Shown: one piece after another, positions 9,851 to 63,048 of the stretch | How the letters are laid out: every line of letters begins with the position of its first letter | Position numbering within the stretch: the first letter of the stretch is position 1 | NCBI GenBank assembly: GCA_956465555.1 | Contig: OY101128.1 | Coordinates: 1-64,000, forward strand | Direction of reading: 5' to 3' | Origin: Nitzschia sp. pyKryTriq1 | Lineage: Eukaryota > Bacillariophyta > Bacillariophyceae > Bacillariales > Bacillariaceae | Length of the DNA stretch: 64,000 bases | Program-made: the position numbers and the translations under genes | Notes under the pieces: generated by a model | Told to the model about the DNA's origin: nothing | Databases searched by the model: none | What the model saw: only the letters and a program-made list of their open reading frames with translations

Positions 9851-12800
9851 ATGTCATGCCCCGTCCGATTGCCCTTTCGCGATGGCGCCCCCGAGTTCTT
9901 GTATGAGCCATCGGCGTTATTGTTGGGTCTTCAAGCGGCCTTGCCAAGATTTGGCTTTCCAGATAGTGTGACGGAAGATTGGATGGCAATGCCGCCAGCT
10001 GATGATAATGATAACAGTAGTAGTAGCAGCAGCAGCAGCAGTGGCGACAAGGCGGGGTATGCCATGGGTGTCATGGGGACAGGGATTATTGTCACGTGCC
10101 TCCTAGTGGTATGGGCGGTGTTGCTGGTGGGATGTGCTCGAGCGGGTGCCAAACGGGTGGGGTGGTGGTCGGGGAAACAGTGCTATCCGGATCCTCCGTC
10201 GGCGCCGCCGTCGTCGTCGCTCTATACTGGGAAAAATAATGATGATGATCATGATGATCATTATGATGATGACTACGACGACTTTAACGTTCATGTCAAC
10301 GACGATCCACCACAAGACGACTCTGCCGTTCGGACACTTCCATCATCATCCGCCGAAACCGAAAAGGTGGTGATGGATACATCGACTCAATCCTCACTAC
10401 TGACTGCCAAACGAGCGAACGTACATCATGTACCGGATCCCATGTCGGACGTTTCGGTTTCGGATTATCAAGGGGAAGATGATATCACCCAGAGTATCAT
10501 TGTTATGGACGAAACAAATGACCTTACCATCCTGGATCAGAGCTATGATGATGAGCACAACAGCAACGGCAGTGGTAGTGGGAACGACCGCAGTGGTGCA
10601 GTAAACTCGTCGTCCGACGATTCGCCATCCATGTTCTATGACGATGACGACAAGGATGATGATGAAGAAGAAGAAGAAGACGGTTCGGATGTCAAACTCG
10701 ACGACGATAGTACGATACTGCCTCCACCCCAAGACGCCAACAACACTACTACTACTACTACTTCCAAAGATGTTTCCTACTTGCCGGCTCAACCAGAAAC
10801 ACCGGCACCAGCTCAGCAGCTGGAGATATCAGCCTTGACGACCCCCGATACTCTCCTAGTATTATCCAGTACTCAATCCGTCGGCGGCAGCAGTACCACC
10901 AGTTCCCACAAGTATGCCGAGTACATGAAGTATTTGGACGAGGCGGGAAGCTCTCGGAAGCTCATTACGACAGGAAACAACAAGGATCAATATTCATCAG
11001 CAATGAATAATTTGTCCAGGAATACTAGTATGGACTCGGATGATTGCTTGTTGGACGAAATCCTCGCAGACGAAGAACCCGTGGCATGGACATCGTCACC
11101 CCCACCACGTACCAATAAGGTGGTCGTGGATAACCGATACATGGCCGCTGGAGCCAGTCCGACATTGCTACGCGCCATACCCGATACTTCTTCTTGTACC
11201 CATCCATTGGACGTTTCGTTTCCAGATCAAGGTCCGGAAGGATTTTTATTTGAAGACAGCGACAGTGCCAGTGCCAGTCAGAACTACTACCATCATCCCG
11301 ACAACAACAACGACCACAACAACGACCACAACGACAGAGAGGACAAACCAACTCCAATCACTACTTCGACTACTGCTACTGCTACTCGCAAGCATGATGA
11401 TTCAGAGCTTATTGATAGTCCAGCGTCTCTTCCCAAGTCCCAGTTCACGAGCAAAGCTGCGTCACGCAAACGCTTGTTGGAAACCTACGTCAGAGACTAC
11501 ATTCATGCGGGCTACGCAAGGAGGACTACGAATATTCATCATCTAGAAATAGACGATGACTTGCTTGTCACGGACGATTCCACTCTCTTGCTGGAAAATG
11601 AGTACGGGATTGTAATTCGACCAGAGCCAGTTGCCAAGGTCATTCCATTCCCGCCACCACCACCCAGTCCTAGTAGTACTTCGACCTTTAGCAGCAGCAG
11701 CAGCAGCAACAACTCGAGTTCCTCCATGCATCCTACTTCAAATAGGAGTACCACTCTGTCCGACACCGCTGCTTATAACGCCCAAGGTGATGATGCTCTG
11801 CCAAAGGTCAATGATCGTCAGCATCAGCAGCACGCTCTTCCCTCAGACAAGACGACCACGACCACGAAGAACGACAAAGAAGAAGACATGGATCTACTAG
11901 TAGTAGAGATTCGGCCGACGAGTACTCCACCGACCGATCATTCTACCAGCACACTCGACGCTCACGAACAAGACGAGGACGAATATCAGTACGAGTACCA
12001 GCACCACTCGAAAGACATCATCATGATGGATGACTACCAACGTGCCCACGCAGTGTGGCTTCAACAACGACGACAAGCAGGGCGCCGTCTGAATCGCCTC
12101 CGGGGAGCCATCGTCATTGCTTGTACGTTACTGGTAATTGGAACGCTATTGGGAGCGCTCAACGGGGCTTGGGCGTTGGATTGGCAACGGCAGAGCATCA
12201 CGAATGCTTGGACCGAACTGGAGTCGACGGCTCTTCAGCTGCAAGGCTTTCTTCAAGAATTACAGATAGCCCAGAGTTCGATTCGACAACAACTCTGGAA
12301 TCTCTGGCAGATGCTCGATCAACACTGTCCTCTGGTACGGGGAAGTGTCTGTCCACTGGCCTACCTACCCAGTAACTACTCGACCGATGATGTCTCGTGC
12401 AATCTAACTGGAATTCCATTGCAGTCGTCTTGGCAGAACTTGCTGGATGTCTTTGTCGATCCTCAAACCATCGATCAGACCCTGTTTGATCCCGAGGATT
12501 GGAACGCCGTCGCCATGGATGTTGACGCCTTTGCTGAGCAACCAGTCGAGATTGCATTGGATGGCTGGAACTGGGCGTTGTGGGCGGCAGTTGCTTGCAA
12601 CTCTTTGCTTTCGTTCTTTGCCCTTGCCATTCTCGCCGCGATTTCGTTCCCGGAAGCACGCCGTCTTCATTTTCAACTCTCGACTTGGTCGTTTGCTGCG
12701 GTCTATTGGGTGACCGTAGCACTGGCCTGGATCTTTGGACTTTGCTTTTTGATTGGAACTATATTGACAGTGGATACTTGTACTTCGACGGTAGAAGACG

Positions 12801-13410
12801 CCTTGAGTGCGCCTCCCGCGACTGTTGCCAAGACTTTATTGGATCGTATCAATACTCGCTCGTTCCTTCCCGCCTACTGGGACTACATCGTCGACGGCTG
12901 TCCCTCCGAGTCGTATCCCGAATATGTCAATGACCGCGTATGGGCGTGGGCGAACTTTCTACCCACGACTTTTGGAATCGCGAACGAGCTGGAAGCCTTG
13001 TCGGACAATGCGTTTTTGGAAACGTGTGGATCTCCGATCTCCGATCTACGCAACGCGGCTTCTACCTTGAGCCTACAAATGTGCATGGTAACGCAGTCAT
13101 TAGTAAATATTCGTAGGAACCTGGGATGCGATCAGTGGTATCCATGGTATGCATCCATGGCAAATGAATCGATTTGTCGTCAAGGAAGCACCGCCTTTGT
13201 CTGGTCAAGGTACGTACTCTATTTTATTTTATTTCTTTTTACTACACTTTGAACCCCAGATGATTCTCACTCTCCTCTATGCACTTGCCGTGCTGTTTCC
13301 ACATTCTGTATTTCAGTGCTTCTCAAATCCTGATTCTCGTCATGGCCTTTTTAATTTGGACGTTGCGTGTCTCCTTTCTATCCTTGGCGCCGACGACACG
13401 CCAGCACTAA
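9851..13410 (+). CDS. Five-span membrane protein with giant acidic loop
   Basis: Model: join(9851..13209, 13317..13410), 1150 residues. The intron (107 nt) is GTACGT...TTTCAG. Splicing adds a fifth membrane span (QILILVMAFLIWTLRVSF) that is conserved in the paralogue at 47.6-50.6 kb. Topology read from sequence: N-tail; TM1 (about 72-95); a roughly 650-residue acidic, Ser/Thr-rich disordered loop with D/E runs; TM2 (about 750-775); a roughly 130-residue segment with Cys and N-glycosylation sites (NYST, NLT); TM3 (about 905-933); TM4 (about 944-973); a roughly 145-residue Cys-bearing segment (DTCTS, DGCPS, ETCGS, LGCDQWYPWY); TM5; and a short tail. This 1+1+2+1 layout with two Cys-bearing outer loops resembles prominin/tweety proteins, but I see no decisive motif, so that is inference. 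Broken pieces of this gene lie at 27.3-28.0 and 30.36 kb. Confidence 0.85.
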
Positions 13411-13428
13411 ATGTACTGTCCATGGCTT

Positions 13429-13600
13429 GGATCAACCCGAAGTTGCTAGTAGTAGCTAGTAGAGCAGTCGGTAACGAATAATCCAGAGATCGCTCTTCTT
13501 CTTCCCGTTCCAAAGAAGCATGCTCTTCCATGGCATCCATGGTAAAGAGTCGTTGTTCAAAACTTGTATCATCACTGTCATCGCCGCCCATCGTGTTGAC
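13429..13600 (-). other. Possible minus-strand exon, partly conserved in a copy
   Basis: A minus frame downstream of the five-span gene contains QRLFTMDAMEEHASLERE. The inverted copy at 27.3 kb retains QRLFPMDAMEEHVSLERE in the corresponding frame. That could mean a convergent coding exon, or only that the copied segment included this 3' flank. No start, stop or splice pattern settles it. Confidence 0.25.
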
Positions 13601-22438: not shown

Positions 22439-25148
22439 TCAAGATACCGGTACACAGTAATACAGCATTTGATCAATGCCCGCGCGATGCCTCGCGCGTC
22501 CTCTGAATGCCTCGAGGCATACAGTGATATCTTCAATGTTCAGTCTATTCGTTCGCCCGTAGAATCCCCATGCAGCTGTCGCTTTCTTGGCTTGTTCCAA
22601 ACTTCTACTAGTAGTCTCTTCTTTGCGTTCGTCGTGGAGAATAGAAAAGATCAAGTTCGACAAGCCTTCGCATTTTTCAGCCGCGTTGGCCGTCAAGAAT
22701 GTAATTTGAATTTGGGTTGCTCGAAGGTGCGATCTCGCTACAATATCCGACATTTGTTCTGTAAGCATTTCGAGTTCCGACTAAAAGAAGAGCGCGGTGA
22801 ATCGCAGTGAAGCGCAGTGAATCAGTGAATGAATGGGATGAATGAATGAATAAATGAATGGGAAGAATGCACTCCACAACGACACGCACAACCCGAATGA
22901 TACAAGATCATCAGTTCTTACCTGAAGCCTTTCGAAAGTCTGCTTTTCTCTACGTCGGCTATTGAACTGGCCGTAGTAGCGCCGGCTTGGATACCGAAAG
23001 AAAGAGAATGCGTAGCTGTGCTTGAGAAACGACCGGCATTCCAAACGTTCAGTGAAGGCCGCATGGACAAATGATAGTCCCTTTCCACCAAATTGAAGTC
23101 TGGCGATCCGTCGAAATCTGTTGCCGCCTCTACTACTTTTTCGAGACGACTACAAACGCTCTCGGCCATGTTTTGTTCCAAAGAAGACGACGCTCCATGA
23201 GCTTCCCACCGCGTGTAGTGATGAACGAATCGAGCCATTTCCTGACGGAGGCGGTACGCTTCCCTGGCGGAATGAATGGCCGTTCCATAACCTTCGTTAA
23301 AAGGATCATCCAGCTCGTCTCTTGGACTAGCTGATGGCTTTCCTCCTTCTATGTCTTGGTTGTCTTGCCAAATATTGCAGCGAAAGAAACCGCCAGTAGC
23401 GTTACCATGAAGCTTCCAGTCCTTTCGACAGATCCAAGTATTAGGGTGTGCACCAAACCAACAACGAAAATTGTACCAGTGTGCATCAGAACAACGTACC
23501 AGAACTCGTATCGGCAAGCTGGAGTTGTACAAGTCATGTGGTTGCATCCATCGTCCTTTTCAATCGGCACTTCGCGCTGCGAAATAGAGAGAGCAAGAGC
23601 AGTATTAGTAGCTGGAGTGCGTGTCTATTCGACAACCCATACATTCAACATCGTGCGGTACCATGAAGCTTCCAGTCCTTTCGACAAATCCAACTATATA
23701 GATCGAAGAAGGACACAAATATTTATAGGGCGTGCACCAAACCAACAACGCCAACCTCCGTCGTCATGATGGCAGCCGCGGATTGGTCGAAGAACTCTTG
23801 GAATTCTTCCGAGAGGGGGTTCCAAGATAAAAGTACTCGTTCCGAACGAATTCACACCCGTCCCAGACAAGACGAATCGCTCACCCAAAACTCCAAGGCA
23901 GGCCAGGATTGTCGACGCCGAACCTCCTCAAGGTCCCCTCGTCCTTCCCAATAATTGGCCCCTGGATCACTGTAGTATCGGATATTGGGGTCTGTCTCCC
24001 CGCCCATACGCTGCATCCAATCCAACAGAAGACACCGCAAGTGTTCTGCCTTTTCTCGCGTTGCCTTCGGGCATCCTTGCATCCCATTCCGACACCACAA
24101 CCATAGGCCGAAGACTGCTCCCATCGCTGCCATCATATTCCGACAAACCCACGTAGTCTAGGATCGTGGCTAAGACATCCAAGTGACTCACCGTGCAACC
24201 TACCTTGGGACAAGGTCGAGTGTTTGTCTTGATCCAGAGCTTTTGGGCGAGCTCTGAAACGTTGTTTGGATTGTCTCCATCGCTTTCCGCCTCTTCGGTG
24301 CCCAATTCATCTTTCATTTTTTGTCGCCATTCCTCGAGCCGCTGGCAAGTGACAGGCCAATGCCTATTCTCTCCACAAGCAAAACAGAATCGATGGGCTT
24401 TTCGGGGTTCATCTTTTATCCGACAATTTTGGTAAACTGGCGATTCTACGCCTTCATAGGTCAATGGTGACTTTGGTTCAAGAGACACTTCTCCAGTGGA
24501 GGGATCAGCGGTACATACAGCTCCCGTGTAGTTGATGAGCGCATCATCCATGTTGTGTTTGGTGAGGAACGACTGAGGCAAGCGATGTACCACCCCGGGG
24601 CATCCAGGATGAATACAGAATTTGAAATCGTGGGCCGAAATGACAAACTGTTCGTTGGTAGCCTCATGGATACGATTGGCTACGTCTGGTTCGTCTTTCA
24701 ATAGCGTGTTGATTTGTTTCGGAGCAAGGACGGTGTCGCACTCGTGGTGGGGGCAGACAATCGATGTAAGCGCCATCTTGGTGGACGCACAATCCTTGAG
24801 ATAGTTTGTGAGACAATCGGAACAAAATCCATGAACGCAACCGCTCAACGGTACCCAATCAACTTCTTCCACCTCATCATCGAAGCAAATAAGACAAGTC
24901 CTGCCTTGCTTATCCGGTGAAGCATCCACGGCTTGCTCCGATGGTAGCTCAATCCCTGCTCTGGAAAAGGCATCTGACGGATTCGATTTGAAACTCTTGA
25001 TAGCCTTGGAAGCGTCCCAGTGGTGGTGCGCCAAATAACGCTCGACATGATATTCTTGAAGATAGGAAAATGCGATTTGCAATTTCGAAGCACACAAGTG
25101 CCAGTTGTACCAAGGATGATAACGGTTGTACTTCCAAGAGGAACGCAA
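22439..25148 (-). pseudogene. Ariadne-type RBR E3 ubiquitin ligase, damaged
   Basis: Exons recognised on the minus strand: a (24192-about 25148), b (23500-23576), c (22922-23437) and d (22439-22780). Exon a has a UBA-like segment (YLAHHHWDASKAIKSF), RING1 (CLICFDD, GCVHGFCSDCL, CPHHECD) and IBR (FCIHPGC, FCFACGENRHWPVTC). RING2 is CPKVGC, then GCNHMTC with the expected catalytic Cys, then CRYEFC|WICRKDWKLHG. Exons c and d give the Ariadne domain (FVHAAFTERLECRSF, SYAFSFFRYP, FERLQ|SELEMLTEQMSD). RBRs transfer ubiquitin through a RING2 Cys thioester. Defects: no ATG or 5' exon is evident; the b-c intron ends in AC instead of AG; exon c has a one-base shortfall after SPDFN (about 23091-23095); and a partial copy of exon c with a good acceptor sits inside the a-b intron (23655-23760). 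It is either a pseudogene or an assembly-damaged gene. Confidence 0.75.
23655..23760 (-). repeat. Partial duplicate of RBR exon c and its acceptor
   Basis: The stretch repeats 23398-23465 with about 90 percent identity over the exon start (WICRKDWKLHG) and the preceding intron (TTGTTGGTTTGGTGCAC). This copy keeps an intact ATATAG acceptor and about 30 more intron bases, which the exon-c copy lacks. It loses similarity after LHG. Confidence 0.7.
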
Positions 25149-25294
25149 GACAATATTTCAACGTATTGTATATATGTTGTTTCCTAATTACCGAAATGTT
25201 TATAATATACAAGACTGTAGGTGAGGATAACATTACTATCAATTGCTTCCTAACTCACGACAACAAGCGCGCGCGCAAGACGACCAGATACACC

Positions 25295-25703
25295 GTACCT
25301 TTCGTGTCAAAAGAGAACGTAAGTACCAGGGGCCCTGTAGAAAATGCGTATGTTGGATACGTAGACCCTGCTACAACCGTGGCGAGGACAAACAGCCAGA
25401 CCATCGGCACTTTTGTACCAGATTTCTACGTAGCTCTACGACAACCCCATCAACCAAGGCGAACCCGCTGGATCCCCGCCGCATGAGTGTTCGACACAAT
25501 GAGTGATGGGCTCATGCGGCGGGGATCCAGCGGGTTCGCCTTGGTTGATGGGGTTGTCGTAGAGCTACGTAGAAATCTGGTACAAAAGTGCCGATGGTCT
25601 GGCTGTTTGTCCTCGCCACGGTTGTAGCAGGGTCTACGTATCCTACATACGCATTTTCTACAGGGCCCCTGGTACTTTCGTTCTCTTTTGACACGAAAGG
25701 TAC
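25295..25703. repeat. 193-bp inverted repeat (giant hairpin)
   Basis: The arms 25295-25487 and 25511-25703 are reverse complements with about two mismatches, separated by a 23-nt spacer (25488-25510). Reading inwards from either end gives the same open frame to the same stop: VPFVSKEN, STRGPVENAYVGYVDPATTV, GTFVPDFYVAL, RTRWIPAA. One of the two differences is synonymous and the other is Val/Glu. No flanking target-site duplication or transposase is evident. The left arm begins about 150 bp upstream of the RBR exon. It could be a foldback element, a gene-fragment palindrome or an inverted assembly join. Confidence 0.88.
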
Positions 25704-26098
25704 AGGTATTATACCTACGGTACCGGTAATGGTACCGCTACTGGTACCGGTAGTACGTGCCCCATGAAAAACCACACGAGGCAATATCACGCGTACGCTG
25801 AATAATAATGCGGGGTACCTACTGCGCCCCATGAGAAAAAGCACATACAGCAGCAAGAGTATGGTACATACCGCAATAGTGCTACGACTATAAAAAGCAA
25901 CGTCCTCTATTATTCCACCACAACGTAGTCGTACAACACAATCCTTTGGTTGCCATCGCAACTCCTGTAGTTATTTCCCTTCAGTGTTTTTCATAAAAGA
26001 GTCGGCACCGAAGAGAAAAGAAGCCGACTACTGTACGAGGACGTGACCAAAAAGCAGCACAAGTCGCTTCTTCTACCGGTATCACTTTTCCGTGCTCA
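25704..26098. other. Intergenic with KpnI-like GGTACC words
   Basis: Just outside the right arm is a cluster of TACCGGTA and GGTACC words (25706-25760). The rest carries a minus open frame entering the palindrome but no recognised product. Confidence 0.35.
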
Positions 26099-26132
26099 AG
26101 AGCGCCAGTACTCCCGATTCGGAGGCACCATG

Positions 26133-27313
26133 GACCTCTCCCCCATTACGGATGGTTCCGATTTGTCGGCCGCTGCGATTCTCCAGTGAGAGACCCGTAC
26201 GGCCAACTTTTATGATACGGCTTTGGAAGGTCGGACCGACTTGGATCCTCCCATTTCCGATCCGGAAGTATCGATCAGTCTCCTCTTTGCGGCGCGTCCC
26301 GGAGACGACTCGACCGGATCGGTGCTAGCGATGCAGTACCGAGCCACGGCTAGTTTTATCACCACCGCCACTGGCTACGATCCAGGCTTTCTCGCGCTTC
26401 CAGCCTTTCGAGAAGGAGCGGCCGTCTTGGCCTATGTGGTGGGATTGAGACAATCCGGAAATGCCATTTTTGAGAATCTCAGCTCTCTCAGTTTGACGGT
26501 CCAAGCGGCCACTCCGGTGGCGGCTCCAACTCCTGCCCCCGTTTCTCCCACTTCGGCTCCCGTTGCCACCCCAGCCCCCACCCCCCGTCCTACCACCGCC
26601 GACACCCTCTCCCACTCGGTTTCCAACGCTAGCTCCCGTGGTGGATGCTACGCCCGAGCCTACTCGGACTCCGTCTTCTCCCATTCCCACCATTCGGACG
26701 CCCACCTTTTCCCTCACGGCAGCACCCGCCAATACTTCAGGAGCGACTCCATCTCCTACTGCAGAGGATACGGCAGACGATACGGAGGTGACGACCTTGG
26801 CTCCAACCTCTAGCAAAGGAGACAATACTACGGAAGGTCCTGCTTCACCTCCGACTACTCCACCTCCGACTACTCCAACTACTCCTACGTACCTCGGGTC
26901 CTCCGACTGGAACTGGATTGCAAAACAAGTATGCTACGACCTCGTTGATTTTCAATACGGTACCCGGAATCATGCCACAAACTCCAATCTTGGAACGATG
27001 GAGGACTATCACTACCGCATACATTCGAGAATATATTCAAACCTTGGAATCGACCTTGATTATGCACGACACTGATTTGGCGATTGAAAAGGTCCTTCAA
27101 AATGAACTGGCACAGTTTATTACTACCATCGAGGATCCAGACGCGGCTGTTGCCGCTCCTACTTCTACTACGTCTGTGGAAACTACCAATGACAGCATAC
27201 GAAGAAGCAGAAGAGCGGCACTACGGGCATTGCAAGATGAACAAACCCCCAATGCCGCCGATACTACTGCCACTGCTAACATGATCAATATCACTACCGT
27301 ATCTCTGTCTTAA
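26133..27313 (+). pseudogene. Pro/Thr-rich extracellular-type protein, frameshifted
   Basis: Pieces of one protein are spread over all three frames. After a start-like MDLSPITDGSDLS (26130) comes NFYDTALEGRTDLDPP, then SISLLFAARPGDDS and REGAAVLAYVVGLRQ. An APTPAPVSPTSAPV stalk changes frame near the C-runs at 26560-26590 and continues TPSPTRFPTLAPV and TEVTTLAPTSSKGD. A further change near 26930 gives RWRTITTAYIREYIQ, LAIEKVLQNELAQF and a stop at 27311. A globular N-domain, a Pro/Thr stalk and a helical module recur in secreted or surface proteins of diatoms, but no named family is recognised. The frame changes make it a pseudogene or an assembly-damaged gene. Its 3' end abuts the inverted five-span copy. 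Confidence 0.5.
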
Positions 27314-28010
27314 CAACGACTCTTTCCCATGGATGCAATGGAAGAGCATGTTTCTTTGGAACGGGAAGAAGATCGATCGAAGGTGCCGACGCCAGTGCTT
27401 CTTCTTCTTCTTTCTCTACGGGTGATGCGTAAATCGGAGATCGGAGATCCACACGTTTCCAAAAACTAATTGTCCGACAAGGCTTCCAGCTTGTTCGCGA
27501 TTTCAAAAGTCGTGGGTAGAAAGTTCCCCCCCGCCAATACGCGGCCATTGACATATTCGGGATACGACTAGGAGGGACAGCCGTCGACTATGTAGTCCCA
27601 GTAGGCGGGAAGGAACGAGCGAGTATCGATACGATCCAATAAAGTCTTGGCAACAGTTGCGGGAGGCGCACTCAAGGCGTCTTGTTCTACCATCGAAGTA
27701 CATGTATCCACTGTCAATATAGTTCCAATCAAAAAGCAAAGCCCAACGATCCAGGCCAGTGCTACGGTCACCCAATAGACCGCAGCAAACAACCAAGTGG
27801 AGAGTTGAAAATGAACACGGCGTGCTTCGGGGAAAGAAATCGCGGCGAGAATGGCAAGAGCGAAGAACAAAAGAAAAGAGTGGCAAGCAACTGCCGCACA
27901 CAACGCCCAGTTCCAGCCATCCAATGCAATCTCGACTTGTTGCTCAGCAAAGGCGTCCACATCCATGGCGACGGCGTTCCAATCCTCGGGATCAAACAGG
28001 GTCTAGTCGA
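27305..28010 (-). pseudogene. Inverted truncated copy of the five-span gene
   Basis: On the minus strand 28006-27420 matches 12477-13062 of the five-span gene, keeping IALDGWNWALCAAVACHS, SFPEARRVHFQLSTW, TLLDRIDTRSFLPAYW and IVDGCPS, then a stop. The match then jumps to 13484-13556 of the parental 3' flank, so about 420 bp of parent is missing. It carries parts of TM3-TM4 only and has no start. The frame survives over 133 codons with scattered substitutions, so the duplication is not very old. Confidence 0.85.
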
Positions 28011-29646: not shown

Positions 29647-29785
29647 CGTTCATCGTCGCGCCATTTCACTTCGAAACGACGCCCTCTTCCGTAGTGACCA
29701 TTGTAGCTATAGCAATAATACTACTACATAAACCTACTGATATATATTCTCTACGAATTAGTGCTGTAAAGTATCCGGATTCGTG
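29647..29785. repeat. Dispersed ~137-bp repeat, copy 1
   Basis: The block beginning TTCATCGTCGCGCCATTTCA and running through CGACGCCCTCTTCCGTAGTG and CTACGAATTAGTGCT recurs at 43476-43612 in the same orientation with few changes. No coding potential. Confidence 0.85.
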
Positions 29786-29881
29786 GCGTCAAGAATAAAA
29801 TATTCGAGACGAAAAAGCGCAAAAATCACGCGATACTGCTAGTTGTGGCACGAATTTTTGCATTTTATATTTCGTAATTCC

Positions 29882-30310
29882 TAGGCTGCTACAGAGCTCC
29901 AAATAGAGTACCACCCCGGCAATCATTAGTTCTTATAGCACTAGCGACGGTCGAATTACGGCGGCGTCCAACTTAGCTTCTGGAACGAGCAGTACGGGAC
30001 GCCCCAAGAGGCAAGTTGATGTTGTGAAAAAGTGAGGCGCGCATCACAAAAAATATCTTGCGATTTTACTAGCGTTTTGAAAATTTGTCCAAATTTGACT
30101 GTTTATGTGTAGCAATACCGAGGCTGCTACAGAGCTCCAAATAAAAAACCACCCGGGCAATCTTTAGTTTGTATATCAATAGCGACGGTCGAATTACGGC
30201 GGCGTCCAACTCATCTTCTGAAACGAGCAGTACGGGACGCCCCAAGAGGCAAGTTGATGTTGTGAAAAAGTGACGCGCGCATCACCAAAAATTATCGCAC
30301 GATTTTACTA
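29882..30310. repeat. ~195-bp repeat, two direct copies
   Basis: Copies at about 29882-30075 and 30119-30312 share GGCTGCTACAGAGCTCCAAA, GCGACGGTCGAATTACGGCG, GCAGTACGGGACGCCCCAAG and AAGTTGATGTTGTGAAAAAG. They are separated by an AT-rich linker. No ORF persists across both. A non-autonomous element is likely. Confidence 0.8.
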
Positions 30311-30357
30311 CGAAAAAATAATGCCTTGCTCCTCGCGAGATGTGCAAATTTTAACTG

Positions 30358-30404
30358 GACGCTTCCCCGTACCACAGGACAGTGTTGATCGAGCATCTGC
30401 CAAT
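30358..30404 (-). pseudogene. 44-bp shard of the five-span gene
   Basis: The minus strand reads WQMLDQHCPVVRGSV, matching the parental WQMLDQHCPLVRGSV at 12307-12351. Similarity stops abruptly at both ends. Confidence 0.65.
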
Positions 30405-30410
30405 ATGCTC

Positions 30411-31471
30411 TGTCGTCTACGACATAGTAGTTCACTTCAAGCGTCACTCTACTACTACTAGTAGTATTTGTTGTTGTTTTCAACTACTAGTAGAGTAGTA
30501 CTTGTGCTAGTAGTATAGTAGATAATCAGGGCCGCCAACAAAGCCTCGCTCCTTCCTGCCTCTCTGCTACTCTAATAGAGTGGACGTGCTGGAGATTACT
30601 GCGGAAGTCGAACAAGTGCTACCAGTATTACCAGTACCAGTACCAGTACTGTAAACAATAAAATATCATTATTTCGCTTTTCATAGAATCCAAGAAGAAC
30701 CGGATGAACGAACATCGTTCTACTCCCAGATCAGTTAACATTCCAAGTAAGCGAGAACCCGAAGAAGCAGAGTATTTCGATTGATGATCTTAAGGAATGA
30801 ATACACTATAAAAATGTACTTAAGCCAGCCTTTGAGGAATTTCCAAAACAGGCGAAACAACATAGTTTTATATTCATTTCCTAATACAATTCAATATTAG
30901 ATACCTTTCTCCATCCTGGTTTTCAATCCAAAAAAACCCAAAAAACGCGAATACGCGATGTCTCGTGTTGTAGCCTCGCTCGAAGTGAGATTGCAACACG
31001 TGGTCGGATTCACAGGGAAATCAAAATTATTCATTTTCGGAATTGCAGCCCTCCTTAAATAACACTACTCGAACCAGAATATTGCTCGGAAAAAAATGGT
31101 TTCAAGTCTGGATAATTCTGGAGAGGTACCCATTTCTGGCTAAAAAAACACTAGATATCTCGTGTTAACATTTTGGCTCCCAGTGCCGTTGCGAGAAGAG
31201 GTGGCATTTGTGTCAAAATGAAAATTATTGAAATCCTGGACTTGTACCGTCCTCTAATGGCAGTGCTTTAAAAACCAGGAGGATCATGGTACTCATGCTT
31301 CAAGTCTGGAAAACTTTAGAGAGCGCCGACTTTTACTATCGAATCCGAGCAAATATTGTGATGTGTTGGTCGTTCGAGTCATTATCATTCCGACTCAAGC
31401 GATCCACCTGTTTGATCAATCGGACCCGATTACCAAGATCCAATATTCCACTACGAGTACCGGTACGCTAA
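30411..31471. other. Intergenic, decayed Helitron 5' region
   Basis: A TACTACTAGTAGTAGT cluster (30448-30520) is followed by AT-rich sequence with no long frame. The missing N-terminal half of the Helitron Rep would be expected here but I cannot find it; a stop (TAA 31469) immediately precedes the retained frame. Confidence 0.4.
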
Positions 31472-33973
31472 TTGTACGAATTCCCACACGATAGAGGTCT
31501 ACTGTATGTGTCTACTGGCACATTGACAACATGTATGGACTCTCATTTTCGTGGTGATAGAGCGGTAGAGTGGGTCTGGTTCCGCGTCGAATACCAGAAA
31601 AGAGGTGCGGCACATATCCACGGATGTTGTCGTCTCAAAGACGACCTGGGACTCTGCAAACTGGGCGACAAGGTGCTGCTTGGTCGAAAGGCACAAAAAG
31701 AATTAGAGGCAGCAGGTATCGAATTTGGTGATTCCCCTTCTTTTTCGCCCGAACAAAAGAAGGACGATGTTTGGGTGGCAGACTTCACTTGCTCCGATCC
31801 TCTTGATGACGAAGAAATACTTTTGCGGAAGCAAAAAGTTGCAGATGGTGTGGAAGCGGAAAAGACGATCGTTGATTATCATGATCGTTTATTGAGTACG
31901 ATGCATCCAAATCCACCTTCAGATGCAGCATCAGATGCGCGCTCGGAAGAAACGTTGTTTCAATACGGTCCTGACGTATGCCATCCATCAGCTGTTGAGA
32001 TGATGAACCCACCCCCAGATCATTTTCCAACTTTGATTAACACTGTGCAACGGCATAAGTGCTCCGCGTATTGCATGCGTCGCAATAAATGCCGCGGAGG
32101 CTTCGCCCATGATCTGCAGGCTGCCACTCATGTCGCAGTCAAGCAGAACCATCGGAAAGACAAGACGATCAACTCTACCCTTGAATTTTTAACGAAGAGA
32201 AACGACAGATGGATGAATAGTTGCAGTCATGAAGCGCTGTTCTGTTGGAAGGCCAACATGGACATGCGTCTTACTATTGATGTGGGAAAGATTATTGCAT
32301 ACATGACAAAGTATGTTACGAAGACAGAAACAAGCCATCCCTCGTCTCGGACTCGTCACTTGTTGTTTTCTACACTACGGCGCTACTCTGATGATGGCAG
32401 TGACACTGCTACTATTTTAAAACGACTAATGACGGCAGTTCACGGAGAACGAATCCGATCGAAGCAAGAGACAGCCCATCTGATCACCGGGCTGCCTCTT
32501 GTGCACTGTGATCACATCTTCAAAAAGATTGATCTACGTAATCGCCTACGAGCTGTGGATGTTCAGGAAGAAGAAGAAGAAGAAGAAGAGCAGGATGCGT
32601 CCGCCACTACCGGTACTGAACCAGCAACAGCACAAGCACCAGCACCAGCCACTACCGGAGAAGTTACTTTGAAGACGGTAATTGACGCGTACGGCTCACG
32701 CATGGATCCTTCCTTGTGGAACAGTGACGTCGACTACCGCTTTGCCGTCCATGACGGCTTGAAGGATTGGTCACTGGATCGTTTCGCGGTCAAGTTTTGC
32801 GTCGGACAGTCGAAAGGCGTACGGAATAAGATCAAGCTTCACGCCAAGGAAGACAAGACCATCATTGTGTTCCAACCGCGTCTTCCTTCCTTCAAGCATA
32901 GCGACTGTTACGCGGAATATTGTCGTTTGTCACTGACGAGATACCGACCATTTGAGGGAACAACACCGGAATTGACGGACGAGGAAGCTGTGGAAGAGTG
33001 GGAAGCATTCCTCCAAAATATTGAGGAACCACCCGATCATTTGAGGCGCCAGATCGATCGTTTACTGCAATACCGGGATAATGATAATGATGATGATGAC
33101 GGCGAAGGCGGTGGCGGTAGATTGGATTTTTTTGGCGCAGGGGAAGAGGGCGATGACGCCGAAATGTTGGAGCTCGAATATTCAGATATTGCCAATGCTG
33201 GGTTGGCAGCGCTCTTCGACGATGATGACGATGAAATCATTCAATGGGACGAGGACCATGATTTCACGCTTCCCTCGGTTGATTTGTCCTCCTGTTCTTT
33301 CGAGGATCCAGCGGCTCGTCTCCAAGAACTGGCCGAAAATGGAGGCCAAGGTCTTGAACGAGTCGCTGAAGAGGTTGACAGCGACGATTTAAACCTCAAA
33401 CAGACATTGTTCGTGGAGGCCATTGAAATTTTATTGGATTACGACGAGACATATTCATCGACAGATGGAGGTCCCGGGCTTTCCCGCTGCGGTATTTTGC
33501 GAGGCCGCGGCGGCACCGGCAAATCACACGCGATAAATTATTTGCGTGGCGTAATTGATGACATCATGGCCGTGCTCGCTACTACCGGTAAGGCGGCTTC
33601 GGTTGTGTTCGGTTCGACCGTGTTCAACCGACGATCCGGTCTCGCCTTGCCAGTGGGCCGAGAGCAATACCGCCCTCTGCAAGGTAAAAACTTGAAACTG
33701 GCCCAAGAGAGGTGGGCCGGTAAACGGGTTCTAATCGTCGATGAGTACTCGATGCTTCATCAGAAGCATCTTTCGTTTATGAACGAGCGATTGAAAGAAA
33801 TCATGGGAAACAACCGTCTTTTTGGTGGCCTCATTGTTGTTTTGGTGGGGGATACTGCTCAATTGCCCCCCGTGCAAGGTCCCCCTCTTTGGTGCAGGAA
33901 ACGCAGTGGTAAATCTACTGACAATCTGAAGGGCATGAAGCTCTACTTCGACGAATTTAAATTTCTTCGATGA
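31472..33973 (+). pseudogene. Helitron Rep-helicase, truncated at both ends
   Basis: An 833-codon open frame without a native ATG. The HUH nuclease motif is VEYQKRGAAHIHGC (H-I-H) at about residues 42-55. The Cys-rich HKCSAYCMRRNKCRGGFAH is next, and the two-tyrosine motif is AYMTKYVTK at about 275. A long linker with an E-run and acidic D-runs follows. The PIF1-type helicase begins with LRGRGGTGKSHAINYL (Walker A, about 670-685), VLIVDEYSM (Walker B) and VVLVGDTAQLPPVQG (motif III), and stops at 33971, before the remaining SF1 motifs. Family knowledge: Rep nicks and joins single strands during rolling-circle transposition, and the helicase unwinds. Missing the Rep N-terminus and the helicase C-terminus, it cannot be autonomous. 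The uninterrupted frame suggests recent decay. Confidence 0.88.
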
Positions 33974-58200: not shown

Positions 58201-61200
58201 GAAATCACGACAACGGTTGCGCAAGAAGTCGCGGAGGATCGGCCACTTGCCGAGTCTCTTGCCGAAGTAGAGGAAGTCATCTCTAGTACTACTACACCGG
58301 AAGCCTGTCAGCTAATCGAGCAAATGGCTGCCGAAAAGGACGACAGTGTCAACGATACCGAGGGGGAAATCACAATGAATGATAACAGCTTGGAAGATAA
58401 CGCTCAACGTGGAGCGTCGGCATTCCAAGAGCATTTCGAAAACACCATCCCCTCTGATTCGCCAATTGCGCAAAGAGAGACTATGGTGGAGATGGCTTCA
58501 CCAGTCGAAGCAGTTTCTCTGGAGGAAATCACGACAACGAAGACTATTACTGACGATGTCGCCCCTGCGAAAGAATCCGATGTAACTGGGACCGAATCAG
58601 TTGTGGGCAAACCCGAGATGCAGTCTGACGACGACATTCCGGAAGATGAGAAAAGGCAGGACTTACATGAAAGCGAATGCCCTATCCTCGAAGAAGGTGA
58701 ACTCATGCAGTCAGTTATTGAAGCGGTCGTTATCAGCGAGCCTGGCATGCACGTAACAATGAGCGACTCCTCTGGACCTCCCGATGTTCAACTAGAAATC
58801 GGAGAAGCGCTGTCAATCCAAGATAACCAACAGCTCATGGACGAAGGATTGATTGAAAACGCAAAAGAGACAACTATATCTGTCGATGTAGCGATTCCGA
58901 CAGTTCAAGCGCTGTCATCTGATGTATCAGGAAACCCTCATGTAGAGGAACGCGTCATTACAGCAGCAACAGTTGAGACCACCGAGACCATCGATCTTGA
59001 AACTTCGGAAGATATTACCACCTTGATAGAAGTGGCACCTGCGCCAGCTCAAGTTCAACTTACGCTTTTGGACGACACAGAAGTAGACAGGGAAGATGAA
59101 GCCACCAATGATGAAGAACGTACGGACGGTACCGCTCCATTTGCCGCCGAAGATGCCCTTGAGCCGGCCCAACATCCGCCTGTTGTATCGGAAGTTTCTC
59201 AAGTAGACGAACGAGTCGTAATTGAAGAGGCTTCGATCGAGATCAACGAGCCCACCGATGTCGAACAAAATGCCGACGATACTAATCCCTTGGTAGAAGG
59301 GCAAGCAGAGCCAGCGCAAGTTGCACCTACTGTATCAGAAGATTCTCAAGTAGACGGACGACTCACTGAAGATGCGACACTCGAAATCGCCGAGCCCGCC
59401 GACGCTGAACGAGGAACGGAGGATACTACTCCCCTGGAAGAAGGGCAAGCAGAGCCAGCGCAAGCACAACTTACGCTTTTCGAAGGCACTCAAGTAGACA
59501 AACAAGACGAAGCCACCGATGATGAAGAAGATACAGAAGGTATCGTTCCATCTGTCAAAGTCTCATATGACTGTAAAGTCGGAGATCCAGTCAGTGAAGA
59601 GGGGAAACTCGAACTCGCCCAGCCCACCGATGTTGAACAAGATGTGGACGATACTGCAGGAGAAGCACCCGAGCAAGCCCACATTTTATCTACTGTATCG
59701 GAAGACACTCAAGCAGATGAACGTATCATCAAAGGCGAGCCCTTTAAAATCAAAAATGCCGATGCGACTCCTCCTCCTGTCCGAAGCCAAGAAAAGGAAG
59801 TAGCCAGTGGCATTTTGTCTTTGCAGTGCCAGTCAGTTCAAATTTCTGAGAAAAGAGAAGGATCTGTACATGACGAGCCGAACGGCTCTGTCCACTCTCA
59901 ACACGAGACAATTACTGAAACAAATGCTACGAGCGACCGAGCCAAGTATTCTCACGATGCCCATCTGGAAGAAACTTTGTGCGAAAAGGCAACGCTAATT
60001 CAAACTCAAGATTCAATCAAAGAACAGGCAAATGGGCAAGAAGGCTTGGATGAAGATATTGAGCATGCTGAGTCCGATCTCGTGGAAAACGTCGCGGATT
60101 TGGTCGAGGATCCTATAGTTCTTGAAGCTCAGTCCGAAAGTGCCCCGCAAGTGGAACCGCCAGCAACTGACCCTGCAAAAGAATCTGCCATCGACATGAT
60201 TCTGAATGAGACTCTTAGCCGAGACGAATCATATTATGTTCTAGCACCACAGCTGTCATCTTTACACGGGTCGGCTCTCGAGGAAATTCTAAACGAACAG
60301 CCAACTTTTGAAACGACTGATGAAGGTCTCAGCCTCCCAGTCCAGGAAACAACAGAAAGCCTATCGAATCAGGCCACCACGTGCGACGCAATCATTGCGC
60401 CGACTGCCGAGGCGGAATCACTTTGTAGCAATGTTCAATTGAGACAAGTCGGAGTCGAACTGGAGCAGGATCCAACGATCGAATTCCTTGATAGCGATGG
60501 TGAGGATGAGGATGAGGATTCTTCCAAAGAGGTCCTAATATTCGAAAACGATGTTGCAAGTTCGACTGATGAAGGTCTCAGCCTCCCAGTCCAGGAAACA
60601 ACAGAAAGCCTATCGAATCAGGCCACCACGGGCGACGCAATCATTGCGCCGACTGCCGAGGCGGAATCACTTTCTAGCAATGTTCAATTGAGACAAGTCG
60701 GAGTCGAACCTACTCTGGAGCAGGATCCAACGATCGAATTCCTTGATAGCGATGGTAAGGATGAGGATGAGGATTCTTCCAAAGAGGTCCTAATATCCGA
60801 AAACGATGTTGCAAGTTCGACTGATGAAGGTCTCAGCCTCCCAGTCCAGGAAACAACAGAAAGCCTATCGAATCAGGCCACCACGGGCGACGCAATCATT
60901 GCGCCGACTGCCGAGGCGGAATCACTTTCTAGCAATGTTCAATTGAGACAAGTCGGAGTCGAACTGGAGCAGGATCCAACGATCGAATTCCTTGATAGCG
61001 ATGGTGAGGATGAGGATGAGGATTCTTCCAAAGAGGTCCTAATATTCGAAAACGATGTTGCAAGTTCGACTGATGAAGGTCTCAGCCTCCCAGTCCAGGA
61101 AACAACAGAAAGCCTATCGAATCAGGCCACCACGGGCGACGCAATCATTGCGCCGACTGCCGAGGCGGAATCACTTTCTAGCAATGTTCAATTGAGACAA

Positions 61201-63048
61201 GTCGGAGTCGAACCTACTCTGGAGCAGGATCCAACGATCGAATTCCTTGATAGCGATGGTAAGGATGAGGATGAGGATTCTTCCAAAGAGGTCCTAATAT
61301 CCGAAAACGATGTTGCAAGTTCGACTGATGAAGGTCTCAGCCTCCCAGTCCAGGAAACAACAGAAAGCCTATCGAATCAGGCCACCACGGGCGACGCAAT
61401 CATTGCGCCGACTGCCGAGGCGGAATCACTTTCTAGCAATGTTCAATTGAGACAAGTCGGAGTCGAACTGGAGCAGGATCCAACGATCGAATTCCTTGAT
61501 AGCGATGGTGAGGATGAGGATGAGGACTCTTCCAAAGAGGTCCTAATATCCGAAAACGATGTTGCAAGTTCGACTGATGAAGGTCTCAGCCTCCCAGTCC
61601 AGGAAACAACAGAAAGCCTATCGAATCAGGCCACCACGGGCGACGCAATCATTGCGCCGACTGCCGAGGCGGAATCATTTTCTAGCAATGTTCAATTGAG
61701 ACAAGTCGGAGTCGAACCTACTCTGGAGCAGGATCCAACGATCGAATTCCTTGATAGCGATGGTAAGGATGAGGATGAGGATTCTTCCAAAGAGGTCCTA
61801 ATATCCGAAAACGATGCTGCACCTTCGTCCCCGAGAAACGATTCATTCCAAGAAACAGAACGCCTTACGAAAGAATCAGCTGCAGATGTTGAAGTCAGTG
61901 CGCCGGCTGCCGAGTTTGAATCCCCATCGAATGCTCATCTACCCATGAGAGAATTCGACGAGCCTACTCTTGGGATTTCTACCGCTTCTCTTGAACGGGA
62001 CCCAACCATCGAATTTATTGATACCGATGTTGAGGAAGATGCTAACGAATTTCCAAGAACCTGCAATCACGATGTTGCTCCTTCTTCTCCAAGTGACGAG
62101 CAACATCACTGGGAAGCCGATGTCGTGAAAGAGGTTGACAACTCACCCCCTATCGCCACCACGGATACACCCATCGGCGACAACAATTCCAAGTCAAAAG
62201 AGCCAGATGCCCCTCTCCCTCCTTCTTCTACTTTGGCCGTAGAAGCCATTAAGAAGGACAGTTCCCAATCGCAACTTCCGACGTTGGATGATATTCAGAA
62301 TGTGATGGTGGTGTCACAACACAAGAAAGAAATAGAAGCGTGTGGGCTAGGTTTGCTCGATCGAATGGTCACATCGATTTTCTCGAGTTGTGCGGGTGAT
62401 CTAACGGCTGTTGGTAGTAACGATGCAGGAGAGATCGCCGCTCCCAGCGATATAGATCAATCCATGGAGCAGCAGCAACAACAGGAGGATCAACAGGAGG
62501 ATCAACAGGATGAGGCTCAAGAGCCCGCGATGTCGCCCATGTCTGCAATGTCGTCCCAGCCAGACGATTCCATGACTCTCGAACGAGGACGAGGCGACCA
62601 AAGCTTTGAGGATCGTGCCGATGTCTCATTTGATTCGACGTTCTCGGGAGATAGTACCAGTGTGGATGGTGGTGGCTATTCTACTATGGAACAATCGACG
62701 TTTTCGAAATCTGCTGCGGATGATGGATACTCCATAGAACGGTCGACGTTTTCGAAATCCGCTGCGGATGATGGATACTCGATGGAACAATCGACTTTTT
62801 CGAAATCCGCTGCAACCTCGGACGATGAAGAGGATTGGTCTACCATGTCCAAGAGCAAAGCCAGACGGCTTCGACGGAAGCGAACCCAACAGGCCACGTC
62901 TCAAAGACTGCTTAGTGCATCGAGTTCAAAAGATGAAGAAGTCGAGCAAATCAAAGAAAGACGATATCATCGGAAAATGTCCCAATCGAGCATATCTCAA
63001 CGCTTGCTGAGCGAATCAATGACACAAGACGACGAAACAGTGGAGTAG
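55255..63048 (+). CDS. Giant BSD-domain protein with tandem acidic repeats
   Basis: 2597 residues in one exon from ATG 55255 (MAKLLLKEAKEEVARLRALE), preceded by a CAACAA leader. Residues 54-115 and about 585-646 are two BSD-like domains (KKCVSNKDFWQRYDYWCGD; VPKKVSEKEFWERYYFRCD) with the F-W...Y pattern of BTF2-like, synapse-associated and DOS2-like proteins. Between them five copies of a GLKDRLKQWN-type amphipathic motif occur, and LGLLDRMVTSIF near the C-terminus may be a sixth. Residues 900-1690 are acidic with diverged repeats (AESLAEVEEVISSTTTPE; EPAQ...VSEDSQVDERV). Residues 1688-2191 are six near-identical units. The C-terminus has three STFSKSAADDGYS repeats and a basic SKARRLRRKRTQQ with two SQRLLS motifs. 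BSD domains occur in TFIIH p62 and in trafficking proteins; the role here is unknown, probably a scaffold. Confidence 0.85.
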   Translation: MAKLLLKEAKEEVARLRALESTYTHDFPAYDGCDGDDDIGDSMIRARELSEWRFAFSKKWNNKNYEKVTSVKIMEQYPEVKEWHTLLVVQKKCVSNKDFWQRYDYWCGDEKRWIQELQRRKEAQVKNRLTLLSVNSNKNSNNKTVKRWSVPAAAAATSSSSSSSSSSSAPGGNTFTSTTTTTSAAAPVAAAAANTAAVTSTSKAAASAASPVGLGLKDRLKQWNSATTTTTTLSSSSFRNLEPTTTTTTSNVDVESLSVKKEKNQEKASVLVVAPLSRFKKKPTVHVPSDEENEDKEDEEASMMMTKPPSSGSNVTPVSVGLPDRLEQYQNAIMMTTHPALLSPSAATPPSVGVPVRLQRWSQAVAVTTPQQQLPLSVVDQQEEEPSVSPPAKLVTTESGSPLGIGLKDRLKQWDKATSGATATTTTTTAPHPPLPTTRSTGTGTGTTSSPTPTRSIRSSTVVVRVPAAPAIASNSALQDESMSSSLHANKKPEDLHASSQTTSLKDRMKAWGNASSQSFCKKKINTPIINLNNKASHDVPPASPAPIMDRKSARAESDRRRKAKETYLEPLSNTTTSSSSDAHDFCLEFRRNFNHRAQARAAQLQMFPDTVAVHYRSMVPKKVSEKEFWERYYFRCDVDRIMAEGQGGVFHKNQDHHHHHQNGNNNDTQSMVSSITHEFEPTSFESSSFHYHKKPPTSIAVPTNVPQRRTSAPVGLYGAASSTQLKTRTIPKVELHSAAVAKESSSSSSSSHKKPTAAAPEVVPSSPAKIFQSSHTNVASTSKRASLKKTIANIHDLDKKKPKEHHRQSVLPKTELQAHITEEEQPEIVIPASAIEQKAYLVSMYKSLETVTGTPTRLSIASPPPPPSSTSSAAMEQVPDQVRKQLLFDEEGEVPQEVSEDQPLAESLAQVEEVISSTTTPEDCQLIEQLAADMDDIVDNTEGDIKLIEGSSEDALSSDSSIVPKETMVEMASEVEAVAQEEITTTVAQEVAEDRPLAESLAEVEEVISSTTTPEACQLIEQMAAEKDDSVNDTEGEITMNDNSLEDNAQRGASAFQEHFENTIPSDSPIAQRETMVEMASPVEAVSLEEITTTKTITDDVAPAKESDVTGTESVVGKPEMQSDDDIPEDEKRQDLHESECPILEEGELMQSVIEAVVISEPGMHVTMSDSSGPPDVQLEIGEALSIQDNQQLMDEGLIENAKETTISVDVAIPTVQALSSDVSGNPHVEERVITAATVETTETIDLETSEDITTLIEVAPAPAQVQLTLLDDTEVDREDEATNDEERTDGTAPFAAEDALEPAQHPPVVSEVSQVDERVVIEEASIEINEPTDVEQNADDTNPLVEGQAEPAQVAPTVSEDSQVDGRLTEDATLEIAEPADAERGTEDTTPLEEGQAEPAQAQLTLFEGTQVDKQDEATDDEEDTEGIVPSVKVSYDCKVGDPVSEEGKLELAQPTDVEQDVDDTAGEAPEQAHILSTVSEDTQADERIIKGEPFKIKNADATPPPVRSQEKEVASGILSLQCQSVQISEKREGSVHDEPNGSVHSQHETITETNATSDRAKYSHDAHLEETLCEKATLIQTQDSIKEQANGQEGLDEDIEHAESDLVENVADLVEDPIVLEAQSESAPQVEPPATDPAKESAIDMILNETLSRDESYYVLAPQLSSLHGSALEEILNEQPTFETTDEGLSLPVQETTESLSNQATTCDAIIAPTAEAESLCSNVQLRQVGVELEQDPTIEFLDSDGEDEDEDSSKEVLIFENDVASSTDEGLSLPVQETTESLSNQATTGDAIIAPTAEAESLSSNVQLRQVGVEPTLEQDPTIEFLDSDGKDEDEDSSKEVLISENDVASSTDEGLSLPVQETTESLSNQATTGDAIIAPTAEAESLSSNVQLRQVGVELEQDPTIEFLDSDGEDEDEDSSKEVLIFENDVASSTDEGLSLPVQETTESLSNQATTGDAIIAPTAEAESLSSNVQLRQVGVEPTLEQDPTIEFLDSDGKDEDEDSSKEVLISENDVASSTDEGLSLPVQETTESLSNQATTGDAIIAPTAEAESLSSNVQLRQVGVELEQDPTIEFLDSDGEDEDEDSSKEVLISENDVASSTDEGLSLPVQETTESLSNQATTGDAIIAPTAEAESFSSNVQLRQVGVEPTLEQDPTIEFLDSDGKDEDEDSSKEVLISENDAAPSSPRNDSFQETERLTKESAADVEVSAPAAEFESPSNAHLPMREFDEPTLGISTASLERDPTIEFIDTDVEEDANEFPRTCNHDVAPSSPSDEQHHWEADVVKEVDNSPPIATTDTPIGDNNSKSKEPDAPLPPSSTLAVEAIKKDSSQSQLPTLDDIQNVMVVSQHKKEIEACGLGLLDRMVTSIFSSCAGDLTAVGSNDAGEIAAPSDIDQSMEQQQQQEDQQEDQQDEAQEPAMSPMSAMSSQPDDSMTLERGRGDQSFEDRADVSFDSTFSGDSTSVDGGGYSTMEQSTFSKSAADDGYSIERSTFSKSAADDGYSMEQSTFSKSAATSDDEEDWSTMSKSKARRLRRKRTQQATSQRLLSASSSKDEEVEQIKERRYHRKMSQSSISQRLLSESMTQDDETVE
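60316..61827 (+). repeat. Coding higher-order repeat, 3 x 504 bp
   Basis: Six tandem units start at 60316, 60565, 60820, 61069, 61324 and 61573. Lengths alternate 249 and 255 bp; the longer form has PT inserted (VEPTLEQ against VELEQ) and usually K for E in SDGKDEDED. So the period is a dimer of 504 bp, repeated three times. Nearly every base is conserved. Each unit carries TDEGLSLPVQETTESLSNQ and EQDPTIEFLDSDG. Confidence 0.95.

Follow-up and report, generated by a model that had tools for sequence, protein, structure and literature searches.

A near-perfect 193-bp palindrome in a rearranged subtelomere of the diatom Nitzschia sp. pyKryTriq1: a putative snap-back copy of a repeat end

The palindrome and its subtelomeric surroundings

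The window (the whole stretch of 64,000 nucleotides that was analysed) represents the left end of the 1.33-Mb contig C14 of Nitzschia sp. pyKryTriq1, the genome of which comprises 40.65 Mb in 20 contigs. The window begins with a telomere-like CCCCAA array (positions 1-329), and therefore the palindrome described here is located about 25 kb from the telomere. According to PMC8329260, the telomere repeat of T. pseudonana and P. tricornutum is TTAGGG, unlike the CCCCAA of the window, and TTAGGGTTGGGG, given there for Nitzschia inconspicua, also differs from this array.

The features of the locus, by position in the window, are as follows:

24938..25091, minus strand: 5' edge of an RBR gene duplicate; 152/154 bases are identical to G000:C14:90120-90273, and the identity ends at 25091
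25092..25294: left junction DNA; no other copy found in the genome (E up to 1, best candidates only)
25295..25487, plus strand: left arm, beginning at the repeat boundary GTACCTTTCGTGTC
25320, plus strand (partner 25678): first difference between the arms; the left arm has the state of the dispersed relatives L007 and L012, the right arm is derived
25354, plus strand (partner 25644): second difference; the right arm has the state of L007, L015 and L012 (reverse strand), the left arm is derived
25488..25510, no strand: loop of 23 nt
25511..25703, minus strand: right arm, matching the left arm in reverse complement except at 2 positions
25704..25842: right junction DNA with abundant GGTACC; no other copy found in the genome (E up to 1, best candidates only)
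25843..26130, plus strand: edge of an inversely duplicated block, with a copy at G000:C14:75776-76468 in two pieces (88% and 97%)

The initial annotation described a near-perfect 193-bp palindrome with about two differences and a 23-nt loop, and all these properties were confirmed: the arms, which are long terminal inverted repeats of 193 nt each, are complementary at 191/193 positions, and both mismatches are T versus A if the two arms are compared in one orientation. No other inverted repeat in the window has arms reaching 18 nt, complementarity of at least 90% and seeds within about 400 nt, as judged by a script that omits low-complexity seeds, and none was obtained at the same thresholds in five order-2 Markov versions of the 64-kb window. 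The palindrome is not a product of chance. Its RNA folding energy (-411 kcal/mol, z of -44 versus 100 shuffles) adds nothing beyond the palindromic structure itself. Long perfect palindromes are generally regarded as unstable.

A genome search with positions 24950-26130 as the query revealed that the blocks around the palindrome are duplicated elsewhere on the chromosome, at two places. The left block (24950-25091) is found at C14:90132-90273 with 99% identity; the fetched copy (L081) follows the window over the 154 bases listed above and diverges from it abruptly at 25091/25092; this break lies within the RBR reading frame, and in L081 the frame goes on past it. The RBR gene is thus indeed broken at its 5' end, as had been proposed. 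Among eight RBR relatives obtained by protein search, five align from 25061-25082 onward and three begin further in, and the N-terminal parts of P0002, P0004 and P0005 gave no match in the window at E below 0.01. The copies of the right block are in the inverse orientation, 25843-26065 at C14:76253-76468 (88%) and 26064-26130 at C14:75776-75842 (97%). The palindrome therefore lies, flanked by duplicated blocks, within 751 bp of DNA (25092-25842) of which the search revealed no other copy. Further inward, 29.7-31.5 kb of the window is an inverted duplicate of C14:71.7-73.2 kb (L066). The RBR duplicate (2/154 differences) and the arms (2/193) could be of similar age, as judged by these few sites.

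Some other observations concern the same region. The RBR-type gene (22600-25091, minus strand), cut at the 5' side relative to the copy near G000:C14:90 kb (compared over the 154-bp edge), looks irregular in its RING2 region, where the short stretch WICRKDWKLHG occurs at 23698-23654 and again at 23436. Inverted duplicates with 94-95% identity are present within the window (12471-13557, 25843-26130, 27312-28010 and 29676-31520), and parts of them are inversely duplicated at C14:71.7-73.2 and 75.8-76.5 kb, as in a repeatedly rearranged subtelomere. GGTACC-like repeats are frequent in the intergenic DNA inspected; among palindromic 4-mers, GTAC ranks first in 50 kb of samples (311 occurrences) and second, after TCGA, in the window (328 vs 446).

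Dispersed relatives of the arm and the age of the copy

It had been suggested to search for the arm elsewhere as a part of some gene. No second copy of the whole arm was found in the genome at E up to 0.001, and the arm with the loop returned only its own place at E up to 10, in both cases with the best candidates scored; instead of a gene, the outer end resembles dispersed noncoding repeats. This resemblance extends over the outer 80-110 bp or so of the arm, and the repeats have a common boundary, GTACCTTTCG. The weak relatives are absent from the whole-arm searches and came from a pattern of the outer 21 bases with up to 3 mismatches, which detected five places besides the two arms (seven in all) versus one for the control pattern. 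A looser pattern with 3 mismatches gave 49 places, including the two arms, versus 32 for its control, and so weak pattern matches carry little meaning.

Both outer ends of the palindrome stop at GTACC, and the similarity in L007, L012 (= L008), L013 (= L011) and L014 (= L009) starts there, at GTACCTTTCG, the sequence outside being unlike. Further stretches similar to the outer arm occur in L015 and, on the reverse strand, in L012. Local alignments were made between each relative and the first 110 bases of the right arm, with 300 base shuffles for each:

L007: score 77, shuffle maximum 36
L015: score 63, shuffle maximum 41
L012, reverse strand: score 44, shuffle maximum 31
L012: score 45, shuffle maximum 36
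L013: score 44, shuffle maximum 44, i.e., equal to the best shuffle
L014: score 49, shuffle maximum 35

These relatives are not fully independent witnesses of the boundary, because the search pattern starts at the palindrome end and L012 and L014 have a part of the outer flank in common. For the inner 85-110 bp or so of the arm and for the loop, no relatives were found in these searches.

Several candidates were set aside. L010, the fifth place given by the 21-base pattern, was left out as a relative since it is alike over 21 bases only (86%), and the upstream flank of L008 belongs to another dispersed repeat of about 60 bp ending at the same junction, not to the element. L007 was rejected as the intact parent element: there, the arm-like stretch is fused to a shortened copy of a 477-bp TG...CA repeat, which makes up the right part, and this locus therefore shows just the outer 90-110 bp or so of the element. 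The 477-bp repeat itself (L034:1470-1946 and many other loci) has copies that are mostly 97-100% identical, several of them shortened at one end and several preceded by a purine-rich stretch; judging by these features, it is probably the LTR of a recently active retrotransposon.

The relatives permit polarising the two differences between the arms. At 25320 (T)/25678, L007 and L012 (reverse strand) read GTAAGT like the left arm, and L015 has an extra A, yet keeps the T; at 25354/25644, L007, L015 and L012 read GTATGTAG like the right arm. Since the relatives keep opposite states at the two sites, each arm took one private substitution after the palindrome had formed. One arm was copied from the other, as follows from the 99% identity of the arms and the far greater divergence of the nearest relatives, and this copying appears to be fairly recent, which agrees with a recent origin, one of the alternatives raised earlier, there being one private change per arm. 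Provided that the arms have escaped conversion and that the Phaeodactylum mutation rate (4.77e-10 per site per generation, PMC6604790) holds here, 2 changes per 386 sites would put the age near 1e7 generations, with Poisson limits of roughly 1e6 and 4e7.

A second palindrome in the sampled genome

Nine 10-kb stretches of the genome (L066-L073 and L080, with L066 adjoining the window) were scanned with the same script, and arms of at least 40 bp at 85% or more were detected in one of them:

L067 5581-5659/5669-5747 (C3:805581-805747): second palindrome, with perfect arms of 79 bp and a 9-nt loop

Its sequence is unrelated to the palindrome of the window and belongs to another repeat family. Four shorter inverted repeats (arms of 19-24 bp) are present in L066, L067 and L068. 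The 65 earlier loci (202,635 bases, overlapping) contained one more, in L043, with the six loci containing the window palindrome set aside; this third inverted repeat (L043:1186-1314, 48-bp arms, 98%, 33-nt loop) lies directly before an LTR-like repeat. One palindrome per 90 kb would correspond to about ten to a few thousand genome-wide (Poisson).

The repeat of L067 occurs at six other places, all of which were fetched (L074-L079). One end of these copies is fixed, AGACC with a T before it in six of six, and the other end lies at widely varying distances. Both outer ends of the L067 palindrome represent this fixed end, with T as the preceding base at one of them and C at the other. Both arms carry an A in GAATATGG that is found in none of the six copies (five have T and the diverged L079 has C); sharing this private A, one arm must have been copied from the other.

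The centre of the L067 palindrome matches the repeat, in the form seen in L076, as far as ...GAAGCCGCCCGC before it turns back; read inward from the right end, it runs through CACCGCGGTGAAGCCGCCCGC like L076 and then back into GGTGATTTCC. By comparison with L076, the turn-back corresponds to pairing of a CCGC end with GCGG. L074 shares this turning point, but its turn covers 22 bp only and has one mismatch. The full turn in L067 and the partial turn in L074 are as self-primed copying would predict, and the turn in both may also have come by common descent.

Origin of the palindrome

We consider it moderately probable that the palindrome of the window is a snap-back copy of a repeat end, made during insertion or break repair, and it is probably a scar and not a gene. 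The starting point would be a strand with the end of a dispersed repeat (boundary GTACCTTTCG...); it would fold on itself at a short inverted match and prime its own copying back to the same repeat end, which would thereby face outward on both sides. The product would be fixed in the junction of about 750 bp formed by the subtelomeric rearrangement that also cut the RBR duplicate, and would then age like ordinary sequence, with one substitution per arm. The anatomy, the repeat-like outer ends and the rearranged surroundings are observed in the window itself, and L067 presents the same plan together with a visible fold-back point. In the window this point is not visible because no relatives of the inner arm and the loop were found, and we infer by analogy that its palindrome was formed in the same way as that of L067, since both have a repeat boundary at each end, an arbitrary centre and one copy found. 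It is presumably devoid of function.

Snap-back copying could have proceeded in either of two settings: (a) target-primed insertion of a truncated repeat, in which the 3' end of the cDNA would snap back and be extended by reverse transcriptase, or (b) a DNA polymerase carrying out fold-back synthesis on a broken end, as part of the rearrangement by which the RBR duplicate was cut. Setting (a) would explain why the copying stopped at the fixed end. No target-site duplication of 3 nt or more was found outside either palindrome, a palindromic TA or GTAC being indistinguishable from the arm end; the missing target duplications lean to (b), whereas the fixed-end pattern leans to (a).

Each setting has a described counterpart. 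The 3' ends of R2-type cDNA are reported to prime snap-back synthesis on the cDNA (PMC11371274), its self-copying giving antisense sequence at the 5' junction, and L074 resembles such a partial event. However, the R2 system as presented there involves engineered templates at rDNA, whereas here we deal with natural repeats of a putative class and found no target duplication. In yeast, breaks are reported to give foldback templated inverted duplications (PMC11724301), which are alike in being self-primed inverted copies of adjacent DNA at a rearrangement junction; in the account of that source they are mostly 5-34 bp, versus 193 and 79 bp here, where the copies end at repeat boundaries.

Some observations count against snap-back copying. 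A single second palindrome was obtained in the 90 kb of samples; L075, L076 and L077 pass the turning point unturned, and L078 and L079 end before it. The homology of the outer end to L007 is short (94% over 34 bp, then gapped), and L012, with two diverged arm-like stretches in opposite orientation, would also fit an element with terminal inverted repeats.

As a tentative generalisation, which we regard as possible though not likely, the genome may hold recurrent near-perfect palindromes in which the cDNA of a retroposed short repeat snapped back and was copied as far as the fixed 3' end, leaving a 3' end on each outer side. If this were true, such palindromes would represent natural fossils of snap-back cDNA insertion, and each of them would be a ready source of double-stranded RNA. 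Among the literature matches listed, we found no description of such palindromes in a diatom. Palindromes of this kind are datable by outgroup repeats, which allows one to ask about their origin and lifespan, and the full (L067) and partial (L074) fold-back, readable at one turning point, raise the same questions of origin and persistence; each new palindrome is also a possible hairpin-RNA source.

The main rival to snap-back copying is a DNA transposon of the foldback or MITE type, non-autonomous and with very long terminal inverted repeats, which a transposase recognising the GTACC tips would move whole. The near-perfect repeats do extend to both tips, which are common to other loci, the GTAC at both ends could represent a palindromic 4-bp or TA target duplication, and the diverged arm-like stretches of L012 face each other. 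However, searches of the genome with the arm, the peptide and a 1.2-kb query revealed no second copy of the palindrome among the best candidates, no non-palindromic target duplication was found, and in none of six relatives (about 3 kb each, up to 3 mismatches in 14) does the tip occur in both orientations. Moreover, one fixed and one variable end do not form the pattern of terminal inverted repeats; this is clear in the repeat of L067 and less clear in that of the window. The Tetris foldback transposon (PMC4079207) likewise has long inverted repeats around a middle without coding capacity, but according to this source it possesses several copies and target-site duplications, whereas for the window palindrome one copy and no target duplication were found. 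We rate a transposon of this type as rather unlikely.

An assembly or library artefact (a fold-back read or a chimaeric join) might be suspected from the position of the palindrome at the junction of duplicated blocks. A fold-back read would give symmetric flanks, but here the flanks differ and no other copy of them was found; the own derived base in each arm, the second palindrome of unrelated sequence elsewhere and the length of only 409 bp also speak against an artefact. From the sequence, a fold-back sequencing artefact is unlikely, and we give artefacts of any kind a low probability.

The initial annotation also raised the possibility of a small-RNA precursor. The corresponding alternative to snap-back copying is a selected hairpin-RNA locus, the transcript of which would start from a nearby promoter, be cleaved by RNase III and pass to Argonaute, as with Mu killer of maize (PMC3440606). 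A transcript would form a long near-perfect hairpin, and it could be processed since the genome encodes Piwi (2 places) and RNase III (3 places) domains, one of each lying about 5 kb apart on C12; besides, antisense or inverted-repeat transgenes are reported to silence genes in Phaeodactylum (PMC4247016). Mu killer offers a precedent as an inverted duplication that likewise includes the end of a mobile element. However, Mu killer is described as silencing MuDR, whereas the window palindrome has no known intact target or transcript: exact matches outside it reach at most 16 nt across the fetched loci and 12 nt elsewhere in the window, and when the arm and loop were searched against the genome (E up to 10, best candidates), the palindrome itself was the only place returned. 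PMC4247016 reports no pre-miRNA hairpins of canonical type in its diatom, and the five Rfam matches all score far below the respective gathering thresholds, the best being mir-3150 (55.6 bits vs a gathering score of 100, E of 3.5e-9). These microRNA matches were dropped as sub-threshold and expected of any near-perfect hairpin. The role of a putative small-RNA precursor is thus possible in principle, and for the palindrome as a selected locus we hold it to be distinctly unlikely.

The claim that both arms encode the same peptide stands as an observation, but a meaningful shared peptide was not supported. Read in frame 0 from either outer end, the palindrome gives the same 63 codons followed by TGA, because the arms are the same sequence in inverted orientation. 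The difference at 25354/25644 is synonymous (GTT/GTA, Val), as stated earlier, but that at 25320/25678 changes Val to Glu. There is no ATG among the 63 codons; the frame extends stop-free into both outer flanks, where in-frame ATGs are present, forming stop-to-stop frames of 160 codons (overlapping the RBR gene in antisense) and 152 codons with flanks unlike each other. The 63 residues gave no candidates among 5.8 billion proteins and matched only the two arms in their own genome; neither long frame had a Pfam match at E up to 0.1, and the 25 word-sharing candidates for the 152-codon frame included no homologue at E up to 1. Random 193-mers (4000) matched in composition to window stretches taken as noncoding had an open stretch of at least 62 codons in one of six frames with a frequency of 0.17 (0.09 for three frames). 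A functional coding duplication for a 63-residue peptide, suggested by the open frame in both arms, the synonymous difference and the ATGs in the flanks, is thus hardly credible, and the coding reading was dropped, since the frame is automatic and lacks a methionine, the searches gave no homologue or Pfam family, and such a frame has a chance probability of 0.17 of being open.

Other open frames are present elsewhere in the window. An 833-aa ORF at 31472-33973 contains a PIF1-type helicase domain with sub-threshold Rep-like matches and is possibly a Helitron fragment, and at 60314-61821 a 249-bp tandem repeat occurs six times inside an open frame of 2641 codons.
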